This document shows positions 1 to 5,842 of a stretch of DNA of 11,690 nucleotides, piece by piece (the first letter of the stretch is position 1; each line of letters opens with the position of its first letter). The DNA is taken from positions 1 through 11,690 of the forward strand of contig CAIXGT010000153.1 of assembly GCA_903919105.1 (NCBI GenBank), read 5' to 3'. Source of the DNA: an uncultured Spartobacteria bacterium. Lineage in GTDB: Bacteria > Verrucomicrobiota > Verrucomicrobiae > Chthoniobacterales > UBA6821. The notes under the pieces are model-generated. The model did no database searches. It saw nothing but the letters and a program-made list of their open reading frames with translations, and was not told the DNA's origin. Made by a program: the position numbers and the translations under genes.

Positions 1-184
1 AAGTCAGAACCCCGCCGATCGCGTAGAGCATCCAGGTTTCGGAAACCACATAGGGGAAACCCATGATCGCAACCGCTAGCAGCATCGTTTTGAAAGAGGA
101 CTGCTTCTTCCCGTAAACGAACGCGGCTAATCCGATCGCCCCGAAGAGGATTTGAGCAAAGAGATTTGCCGCGGTGAAAGACAT
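1..184 (-). CDS. Small two-helix membrane protein, partial (C-terminus beyond left edge)
   Basis: An ATG at 184 (minus) opens a frame that stays open to the window edge, giving 61 residues beginning MSFTAANLFAQILFGAIGLA. Two hydrophobic stretches are visible, at about residues 6-24 and 33-57, separated by a short basic loop (GKKQSS). This suggests a small inner-membrane protein with two transmembrane helices. No Shine-Dalgarno sequence is evident upstream. It is transcribed away from the window, and the integrase gene to its right lies on the same strand, separated by 59 bp that include a short repeat. I do not recognise a specific function. Small proteins of this look occur widely as hypotheticals, so no role is assigned. 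The frame, the hydrophobic pattern and the coding-like codons make it likely real. Confidence 0.6.
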   Translation of the reverse strand, partial: MSFTAANLFAQILFGAIGLAAFVYGKKQSSFKTMLLAVAIMGFPYVVSETWMLYAIGGVLT

Positions 185-200
185 GGAAATCAAAGTGTCG

Positions 201-243: not shown

Positions 244-1263
244 CTAATCCAGCGGACTTTTCACCGCGAGGCCGGGTTTATTGAGGACATGGGTGTAGAT
301 CATCGTCGTCGAGACATCCTTGTGCCCGAGCAACTCCTGCACCGTGCGGATGTCGTAGCCATTCTCAAGCAAGTGCGTGGCAAAGGAATGACTCAGCGTG
401 TGGCAGGTCGCCGGCTTCGTGATTCCGCTCACCCGCAGCGCCCCCTTCATCGCGCGCTGCAACCCCGTCTTCAGCACATGATGGCGACGGATCACCCCTG
501 ACCGCGGATCCCTCGACCGCGATCGAGAGGGAAATACCCACTGCCACCCCCACTCCTTGGCTGCCCTCGGATACTTTCGTGCCAGAGCTTCGGGCAGATA
601 GACCTCCCCATAGCCCTCCCTCAGATCGGATTCCCACAGCACCCTCACCCGCTTCAGATGCTCGGACAGAGGTTCCCGGAGCAGCTCCGGTAGCATCGTC
701 ACCCGATCCTTATCACCCTTTCCTCCCCGTACCATGATCTGCCCTCGGTCGAAATCCACATCCTTAACCCGTAGCCGGAGCAACTCCATCAGCCTTATTC
801 CGGTTCCATAAAGCACCTGACCCGGCAGACGAAAAGCATCGGGAAGAGATCCCAGCAAACGCTGCACCTCCGCCTTGCTCAGGACCACGGGGAGACGCTT
901 TCTCCTGCTCGCCTGGAGAAACTCCCCCAGATCACCAAGCTCAATTCCCAGCACCTGAGAATAAAGAAAGACAATGGCGTTTAGGGCTTGATTCTGCGTC
1001 GCGGCCGATACAGCTTGCACGCTGGCAAGATGATTGAGAAACCCCACCACCTCTGCAGAGCCCAGATCACGGGGATGCATCCACTCCCCCGACTGATCCC
1101 TCTGGTGTTTGAGGAAGCGAAGCACCCATCCCGTGTAGGCTTCCTCCGTTCGAAGGCTGTAGTGCTTTACCCGGAGCACCTCCCTGACTTGATCCATCAA
1201 CGGCGATTTCGGATTGGCAATGACGAACGCAGCCTTTCCCGGGAAGCTTCTGTGGGGTTTCAT
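244..1263 (-). CDS. intI: Integron integrase (IntI-type tyrosine recombinase) with catalytic Arg replaced by Ser
   Basis: This is a site-specific tyrosine recombinase that would integrate and excise cassettes at attI and attC. Numbered from the ATG at 1263 (339 residues), it has an N-terminal SAM-like DNA-binding part (about 20-105) and a catalytic domain. That domain shows Arg I in [10 protein letters not shown] (R157), the GGKGDKDR strand (K182), His in CHTLSHSF (H288), His in LLGHKD (H314) and the nucleophile in TMIYTH (Y323). The integron-specific insertion is present ([10 protein letters not shown], then DPRSG and RRHH, about 236-262), which separates it from XerC/D and phage integrases. 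The second catalytic Arg, normally HTLRH, is Ser here (S291, codon at 391-393), so strand cleavage should fail. The frame can extend to a GTG at 1278, but that codon overlaps the AAGGAG ribosome-site-like sequence (1278-1283), so I prefer the ATG. The frame is otherwise intact. Confidence 0.9.
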
Positions 1264-1279
1264 AGGGGAAACTACCACT

Positions 1280-1290
1280 CCTTCAGAAGG
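1280..1290. other. Small palindrome beside the integrase start
   Basis: CCTTC-A-GAAGG is a perfect inverted repeat immediately upstream of the integrase start. On the minus strand it overlaps the AAGGAG element, so the ribosome site could be partly hidden in a hairpin. The symmetry is directly visible. A regulatory role is only a guess. Confidence 0.3.
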
Positions 1291-1320
1291 ATAGCAAAAA
1301 ACCTACCCCGATGAACTTAA

Positions 1321-1361
1321 CAACAAACACGGCCATTTGGCCGCCTAGTACCTGTTAGGGG
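1321..1361 (+). other. attI: attI-like integration site (core box GTTAGGGG at 1354-1361)
   Basis: This lies between the integrase start and the first cassette, where attI is expected. The core box GTTAGGGG (1354-1361) marks the junction, with the crossover expected after the first G. The assignment is supported by CCCCTAAC at 1834-1841, the exact reverse complement, which is the R'' box of the first cassette. An inverted repeat CTAGT/ACTAG (1345-1349 and 1362-1366) brackets the box. A 14-bp palindrome, CGGCCATTTGGCCG, lies at 1330-1343. The outer boundary of attI is not resolved. Confidence 0.6.
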
Positions 1362-1886
1362 ACTAGAGATCTCTCATGAACGAAATCACCGATAAATCAC
1401 CACCTCTTATGTGGATAAAAAAGACCCAAAAAGAAATTGAAGAAGCAAAGATCCAAAATGAGCAAACGAAAAAAAAGGGATATAAAATTGCTAGAATTGT
1501 ATTATCTGTTGGATTGGGAGGACTTATTACCATCGGATGCACATTTCTGCATGGGAGGATGGGTGTAGGTATGTATGGCACAAACATTGTTGGAGAAAGT
1601 GAATTAGCAGCAAGATTCCCAATTGCCTTAATCATTGGAATTATCATTGGAGTCATTATTTACTTAACTCCACTACCAAAATCAAAACAGACATTTGTAT
1701 GCCCAAAATGTGAAACAGTAAAAACAGATGATGGAGAGTATACATGCTCTTGCGGAGGTCACTTTGAAAACATCGTCTCCATGAAATGGATAGAGAATCA
1801 GAAAGCCTAGAAAGGAAAGATAGAACATGAAATCCCCTAACCAAGCGATGCAGCGAACGCCCTTCGGTCGTCGCTGATCTTTAACG
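1355..1886 (+). mobile_element. Integron gene cassette 1
   Basis: The cassette runs from the crossover point in the attI box (after G1354) to the crossover point in attC1 (after G1886). In the circular form its two ends would join as GTTAGGGG, which pairs perfectly with its own R'' box at 1834-1841. That match is a strong internal check of the boundaries. It carries one gene (1376-1810) and a 59-bp attC. No promoter is evident inside it, as is usual for cassettes. Confidence 0.75.
1376..1810 (+). CDS. Cassette 1 protein: two-helix membrane protein with C-terminal zinc ribbon
   Basis: This is a 144-residue protein of unrecognised family. The N-terminal third is charged and probably helical (KKTQKEIEEAKIQNEQTKKK, residues 15-34). 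It is followed by two hydrophobic segments, at about 38-58 (IARIVLSVGLGGLITIGCTF) and 81-98 (FPIALIIGIIIGVIIYLT). The C-terminal tail has a CPKC pair (C109, C112) and a CSCGG pair (C124, C126), consistent with a zinc ribbon that is likely cytoplasmic. The gene starts 21 bp inside the cassette and ends 23 bp before the attC R'' box, the standard cassette layout. No clear ribosome site is seen; an AGAGATCTCT palindrome lies just upstream. An internal Met at residue 12 (ATG at 1409) is an alternative start. The base composition is AT-rich. Function is unknown. Confidence 0.8.
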   Translation: MNEITDKSPPLMWIKKTQKEIEEAKIQNEQTKKKGYKIARIVLSVGLGGLITIGCTFLHGRMGVGMYGTNIVGESELAARFPIALIIGIIIGVIIYLTPLPKSKQTFVCPKCETVKTDDGEYTCSCGGHFENIVSMKWIENQKA

Positions 1887-1892
1887 TTCGGC
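1834..1892 (+). other. attC: attC1 recombination site of cassette 1
   Basis: This is a well-formed attC hairpin. R'' is CCCCTAAC (1834-1841) and L'' is GATGCAGCGA (1847-1856). A short loop with CCTTCGG follows, then L' TCGCTGATC (1871-1879) and R' GTTCGGC (1886-1892). L'' and L' pair perfectly except for one extra G in L'' (G1850). This is the extrahelical base that directs the integrase to the folded bottom strand in known attC sites. The stem extends inward with ACG/CGT-type pairing. Its length of 59 bp is normal for attC. Confidence 0.85.
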
Positions 1893-2342
1893 AGAAAAAA
1901 TACAACCAGAACATCCATGAGTAAATGTCCAAACTGTAGTTGCGATATGGAGGAAGGGGAGTTTTCTGTAGGACAGTCAGGTTTAGCTACACTTATGGTG
2001 GGTGCATCATTCCCGCAGCTTTTCTTTAAATCTAAGGATAAGAACAGAGAATCTATCATTCAGTGGAATACTGGGCAAAGAATCGGATTATATTGTAGAA
2101 ATTGCGGAACTGTCCTTATTAAGACAAGAAAGAATTCAGCCTCCAGTTGAGATGAATAAAATACGAATCATTACGCCGAACTAAGCGCTGCACACCAACG
2201 GCTCTCCGCGCGGGTTGTTTAATAGTGCGGTCATAATTTCACCGGCTCAGTCACGGATGCTGCTTCCGCAGCCTCCGCGCCTTCGCCTTGACCCTTTTTG
2301 CTGCCACCTGCCGGTTCCAGAGAGCCGTGGGTGAGCTTGGCG
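1887..2342 (+). mobile_element. Integron gene cassette 2
   Basis: The left boundary is the crossover in GTTCGGC (1886-1892). The cassette's own R'' box is GCCGAAC (2175-2181), the exact reverse complement, which confirms that the two ends belong to one circularisable unit. It holds a single small gene (1917-2150). The right boundary is the G of the GTTAAGGC box at 2342, which is less certain because the attC there is unusually long. Confidence 0.65.
1917..2150 (+). CDS. Cassette 2 protein: small zinc-ribbon protein, DUF6487-like
   Basis: This is a 77-residue protein with two cysteine pairs, CPNC near the start (C4, C7) and CRNC near the end (C60, C63). Between them the segment reads DMEEGEFSVGQSG at first and IIQWNTGQRIGLYC at the end. 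The pattern CPxC-x2-MEEG, a central Trp, and a second Cys pair after a small strand resembles small bacterial zinc-ribbon proteins grouped as DUF6487. That match is by recollection of the pattern. The role is unknown; such proteins may bind nucleic acid or act as metal-stabilised scaffolds. The gene starts 30 bp inside the cassette with no obvious ribosome site. It is AT-rich like cassette 1. Confidence 0.75.
   Translation: MSKCPNCSCDMEEGEFSVGQSGLATLMVGASFPQLFFKSKDKNRESIIQWNTGQRIGLYCRNCGTVLIKTRKNSASS

Positions 2343-3487: not shown

Positions 3488-5842
<2,355 letters not shown>

Follow-up and report, generated by a model that had tools for sequence, protein, structure and literature searches.

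Serine at the second catalytic arginine position in the integrase of an apparent small chromosomal integron

The window, by which we mean the whole 11,690-nucleotide stretch of DNA analysed here, carries from left to right a short open reading frame (ORF), an integrase gene (intI), an attI region, two gene cassettes, phnA/yjdM, two small genes and icd. On sequence grounds, its organism appears to be related to an uncultured Spartobacteria genome. The features are listed below in window coordinates. Integrase residues are numbered over the 344-codon frame, with numbers counted from the ATG given in brackets.

2 to 193, minus strand: short ORF
1278 to 244, minus strand: intI, integron integrase, 344 codons from a GTG start; the ATG is residue 6
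793 to 795, minus strand: first catalytic arginine (Arg-I), R162 (R157), present
718 to 720, minus strand: catalytic lysine, K187 (K182), present
469 to 471, minus strand: Lys270, a second charge-changing residue, in a mostly acidic column
400 to 402, minus strand: first catalytic histidine, H293 (H288), present
391 to 393, minus strand: column of the second catalytic arginine (Arg-II), occupied by Ser296 (291), giving HTLS for HTLR; codon AGT (ACT on the plus strand)
322 to 324, minus strand: second catalytic histidine, H319 (H314), present
295 to 297, minus strand: nucleophilic tyrosine, Y328 (Y323), present
1279 to 1360, plus strand: attI region with similarity to genomes G019 and G017; core GTTAGGG at 1354-1360
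1355 to 1886, plus strand: cassette 1, with an ORF at 1376-1810 and attC at 1835-1892
1887 to 2342, plus strand: cassette 2, with an ORF at 1917-2150 and attC at 2175-2348
180 to 2486: stretch missing at the same site in the sister genome G015, whose two matching flanks are three bases apart
2868 to 2485, minus strand: phnA/yjdM
between phnA and icd: two small genes with matches to DUF2283 and DUF4258
3488-5711, minus strand: icd, monomeric isocitrate dehydrogenase, split into two frames
rightward of icd, in order: leuC, leuD, a MASE1 histidine kinase, a LytTR response regulator and a metallophosphatase

The intI product matches the family model TIGR02249 with 439.5 bits, against a cut-off of 265, and contains the domains PF13495 and PF00589. 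Comparison with the solved integrase 2a3v (IntI4) gives an E value of 8.5e-81. By descent, the protein is an integron integrase. The attI region adjoins its gene, and 76-79 bases of this region are about 89% identical to sequences in G019 and G017. This similarity ends at the core GTTAGGG, beyond which the sequences of the window, G019 and G017 differ.

In both cassettes the outer attC motif exactly complements the core of that same cassette, with CCCTAAC matching GTTAGGG in cassette 1 and GCCGAAC matching GTTCGGC in cassette 2. The core of the first attC recurs in loci of G017, G019, G020 and G021 with 93-100% identity over 39-46 bases. When folded as bottom strands, the second attC forms a long hairpin (z -2.29; 1 of 200 shuffles as good), and the first is not clearly above its shuffles (z -0.87; 39 of 200 as good). 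The ORF of cassette 1 encodes 144 amino acids, with a weak zinc-finger match at 105-140 and hydrophobic stretches recognised by eye; that of cassette 2 encodes 77 amino acids and matches DUF6487 at its cut-off. Nothing points to a third cassette, as the window contains no complement of the last core farther downstream. This arrangement suggests that the window holds a small chromosomal integron composed of intI, attI and two cassettes.

No Rfam family matches the window at gathering scores, and a promoter/terminator scan of positions 1150-2500 returned 1 and 2 sites, compared with shuffle means of 2.3 and 1.6. Separately, a hairpin element is found at 2377-2496, at the 3' end of phnA (-28.9 kcal/mol with DNA parameters; arms AAAAGCGTAGT and ACTACGCTTTT), and it too has no Rfam match. 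A 73-base piece of this element is present with 78% identity in G015 (C32), and stretches resembling it, as judged by eye, adjoin phnA in G021 and G024.

For context we drew on the 16 genomes in the genus to which G002, the genome that carries locus L011, belongs. The LeuC protein of the window is identical to that of G015 after rounding (100%) and 99% identical to that of G020; nearly all of the other 14 genomes give 90-96%, and G016 has no close match. At the integron-free site of G015 (locus L125), the phnA stop and the beginning of the following ORF overlap when the sequence is inspected by eye. Either the integron was inserted in the lineage of the window or it was lost in G015.

The preliminary description of this DNA had pointed to a serine, encoded by AGT at 391-393, in place of the second catalytic arginine of an otherwise complete integrase. 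Rereading the codon bears this out, and every homologue aligned has Arg at this position, as does the corresponding residue of 2a3v. The description was equally correct that the frame is complete and that R162, K187, H293, H319 and Y328 are in place. Thus, five of the six residues of the catalytic set R-K-H-R-H-Y are present, the exception being Ser296 at Arg-II.

The same description had proposed counting Arg against Ser in this column among homologues. Arg occupies it in 120/120 homologues from a first protein search, and in 236/236 proteins when this search is combined with a second that used the C-terminal 179 residues as query; both lists hold the best 120 of about 8000 matches. The entries searched are representatives of 90% clusters, within which Ser forms would be hidden (P0001, for example, represents 59 sequences). 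At the DNA level, the first set of loci has Arg in 159/159 matches above 150 bits (144 of them distinct, with 32 weaker matches dropped). An enlarged set has Arg in 255/255 sequences that are distinct over the last 150 residues and match across the column with more than 150 bits (281 matches before deduplication, 42 weaker ones dropped). In this enlarged set, 60 integrase regions come from the matches listed by a search across 213 genomes in the order to which G002 belongs; all 60 cover the column. A Ser form shared across the clade is thereby ruled out for the sequences examined. A motif search of viral_contigs found no stretch with Ser encoded by AGY, compared with 72 for a pattern covering Arg. 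Among the literature matches listed, titles and abstract openings mention no natural Arg-II change in an integron integrase.

A residue so isolated might be a wrong base. By this explanation, the integrase of the population has Arg, and AGT entered the consensus through low coverage, strain mixture or read error. The call of Ser296 rests on the consensus of one contig; the preliminary description asked for raw-read support at this codon, yet its interpretation takes the base as correct. The absence of Ser from every other sequence examined, and of its AGY form from viral_contigs, speaks for such an error. So does icd, in which one extra base in a G run at about 3962 is peculiar to the window and lacking in 9/9 aligned relatives. 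The two resulting frames correspond to neighbouring stretches (5-585 and 585-742) of the monomeric isocitrate dehydrogenase profile, which they cover between them, and the extra base is either an error of the consensus or a genuine disruption of a gene of central metabolism. An indel in a homopolymer does not, however, imply substitution errors. As a measure of the latter, we counted private departures at columns invariant among relatives in four other genes, omitting the metallophosphatase, for which relatives are too few. The window shows 10 departures in 1091 columns, distributed as 0/387 in leuC, 0/135 in leuD, 5/393 and 2/102 in the two icd pieces, and 3/74 in phnA. This count lies slightly above the counts, summed by hand, of the nearest relatives G015 (4), G021 (6) and G020 (7), which favours an error, but below those of G019 (20), G024 (24) and G017 (27), which does not; the clean leuC and leuD, and a LeuC identical, after rounding, to that of G015, likewise speak for the base calls. 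Substitution errors therefore do not appear to be plainly raised, and we regard a consensus error as an unlikely, if serious, explanation of the Ser codon.

The position of the change is more unusual than the number of changes. Residue 296 is the one place where the window differs among 67 columns that do not vary in the other 120 proteins; by the same leave-one-out test, 108 of these 120 proteins depart at none. We also compared residue classes at columns whose class is at least 95% conserved, using 265 distinct full-length sequences (a span of at least 280 residues and no stop, with the window included). This comparison revealed one further departure, Lys270, at a column where the other 264 sequences have E (231), D (19), P (9), A (2), S (1) or a gap (2), and hence an acidic residue in 250/264. 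Two class departures are not exceptional, as 47 of the 264 other sequences have as many; the striking feature of the window is that one of its departures falls on a catalytic residue. Lys270 itself is possibly a second damaging change or a compensating one.

One proposal is that the Ser form is active, or partly so, with the missing charge supplied elsewhere, for instance by Lys270. K270 and S296 are the sole class departures at these conserved columns, and both are peculiar to the window. There is also a precedent in the CTnDOT integrase, in which Arg-I is displaced and another Arg takes over, according to the part of PMC8138268 available to us. Nevertheless, the five residues that the window alone has when compared with G019, P0001, P0003 and P0004, K270 and S296 among them, include no new Arg. 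Every other sequence examined keeps Arg at Arg-II, and K270 may be just a second damaging change. We therefore hold an active Ser form to be highly improbable.

Losses at other catalytic sites were also sought in the homologues. Five of the 255 loci sequences have an apparent loss at a site other than Arg-II. In L328 the two ends lie in different frames and the end diverges; L336 lacks its N-terminal half and carries K187N; L338 contains stops; and in L243, which has a changed end, the match stops at residue 329, right after a misfit Tyr. The fifth, L305 (G031), has H319P at the second His in a frame that is open to the contig end. In pairwise alignments of the 236 proteins, the Tyr column holds 234 Y and one F and is uncovered in one protein, whereas a MAFFT alignment of 120 gave one Q. 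The F belongs to P0130, a protein of 237 residues with Y328F, and P0135 shows a gap at Arg-I in pairwise alignments. Cases comparable to the Ser296 missense are thus rare among the sequences examined, namely H319P in L305 and Y328F in P0130.

The nearest relative for which DNA is available, the G019 integrase, is 94% identical in protein sequence to that of the window and has CGC at the Arg-II codon. In the 144 distinct loci, the Arg codons at this column are CGC (63), CGG (40), CGT (18), CGA (11), AGG (9) and AGA (3). The preliminary description had derived AGT from CGT by one mutation, a statement that finds no support as written, given CGC in G019 and the low share of CGT.

The integrase genes of the window and G019 differ at 94 codons, 19 of them nonsynonymously, with an NG86 dN of 0.033 and dS of 0.417. 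The resulting dN/dS of about 0.08 (0.06 and 0.10 by two other methods) describes the history of the pair and not the time since Arg-II changed. It shows that the gene lineage has been under purifying selection in the past. In relative-rate comparisons of the window with four relatives, using four outgroups, 0/16 were significant (lowest p 0.065); changes specific to the window exceeded those of the relative in 10/16, including 4/4 with G019. A rate on the window branch that is not significantly raised fits recency, but it also fits a functional gene or a sequence error. A long-dead gene is unlikely in view of the open frame, the low dN/dS and the absence of any significant rate test, although the excess of window-specific changes in 10/16 comparisons points the other way. 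By the same evidence, the earlier suggestion that the inactivation is recent is consistent with the data.

In IntI1, the Arg of the HxxR motif is presumably R280. The IntI1 mutants R280E and R146K are inactive both in vivo and in vitro, and R280E shows no affinity for attI1 or attC, as described in the excerpted text of PMC2117344. In tyrosine recombinases generally, Arg-I and Arg-II stabilise the phosphate transition state; Cre and Flp mutants without either Arg act on charge-neutral substrates, and replacement of Arg-II by Lys is reasonably well tolerated in Cre (PMC4499138, also from excerpts). Ser is unlike that Lys. Because of the role of the two arginines and the inactivity of R280E and R146K, Ser296 would be expected to abolish or nearly abolish recombination. 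The loss of function put forward in the preliminary description therefore stands as likely, by analogy with a change to Glu rather than Ser in IntI1 and with the Cre and Flp data, as far as these are given in the parts of the sources available. Specifically, the window integrase would no longer stabilise the scissile phosphate, it may also bind its sites poorly if it resembles R280E, and this copy would neither insert nor excise cassettes.

Outside this residue the gene shows good conservation, as it might if the protein had been retained as a non-cleaving DNA-binding protein that, for example, covers attI or represses its own gene. MrpR of prophage SPbeta, which has a tyrosine-recombinase fold, performs no recombination and acts as a repressor, illustrates such a role in the excerpts of PMC10516654. 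Yet recency explains the conservation, IntI1 R280E, again from the available text of PMC2117344, binds neither attI1 nor attC, and no second Ser sequence was found, hence nothing hints that a dead form is being selected. The chance that the integrase serves as a binder seems to us extremely slim. Considered jointly, a naturally occurring integron integrase that functions despite the loss of Arg-II, its charge supplied by Lys270 or elsewhere, and one kept as a non-cleaving attI binder make up a quite improbable pair of outcomes.

We instead consider it likely that a recent missense mutation changed Arg-II to Ser in the integrase of a small chromosomal integron, leaving an enzyme that is probably dead and cassettes that are retained. 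The array had been called locked, and this holds in cis only, because attI and both attC sites are still present and may continue to serve an integrase that acts in trans, which could then move the cassettes.

Integrase genes in other genomes of the genus are found in several states. Full-length matches occur in G002, G019 and G021 among the 16 genomes. The G021 integrase is 62% identical to that of the window, with attC-like sites on its phnA side, and its contig also has phnA and leuC. G017 (L133) retains an N-terminal piece with a TAG, G020 (L136) the C-terminal 119 residues and G015 (L137) a remnant of 25 residues; in G012 the integrase piece runs off the end of its contig. Within about 1.5 kb of the remnants in G017 and G020 there is an attC-like core. 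The other nine genomes give only weak integrase matches of about 50 bits, which we take for Xer recombinases, and fragmentary contigs make these absences weak. A dead integrase in the window would add to the losses in a genus in which copies elsewhere are truncated or have disappeared, and this genus is a place where integrase loss can be traced in stages.

Dead integron integrases are common, and the window would represent a known fate reached through an unusual single missense. In the available part of PMC2426708, nearly a third of surveyed intI genes are pseudogenes with a stop, a frameshift or a large indel, the definition also covering a size that is off by at least 20%. By that excerpted definition the window intI, with its open frame of 344 codons, would not count as a pseudogene. 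Excerpts of other studies describe a fitness cost of active class 1 integrases in Acinetobacter baylyi, with loss by frameshift in serial transfer (PMC3510236), widespread intI inactivation in several Xanthomonas species (PMC12444791) and loss of the chromosomal integron in Treponema (PMC3607928). If the base is right, counts of intI pseudogenes based on stops and frameshifts would miss deaths of this kind and would therefore be lower bounds.

The window integrase shares with IntI4 (2a3v) and IntI1 the match to a common family model, the N-terminal and catalytic domains and five of the six catalytic residues; it alone has Ser at Arg-II and Lys at the mostly acidic column 270. The same catalytic Arg is presumably affected in IntI1 R280E, which is a laboratory change to Glu in the excerpted account, whereas the window has a natural Ser. 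The chromosomal intI pseudogenes described in the available parts of PMC2426708 and, for Xanthomonas, PMC12444791 likewise combine probable loss of integrase activity with remaining cassettes. Those pseudogenes were called, according to the same excerpts, by stop, frameshift, large indel, size, truncation or absence, and by such signs the window copy passes as intact. Two further proteins resemble it in having natural, nonstandard catalytic sets, as far as the excerpted reports go. In the CTnDOT integrase (PMC8138268), however, it is Arg-I that is missing, with another Arg as its substitute, and MrpR (PMC10516654), a repressor with the tyrosine-recombinase fold, lacks most of the catalytic residues, five of which the window integrase keeps.
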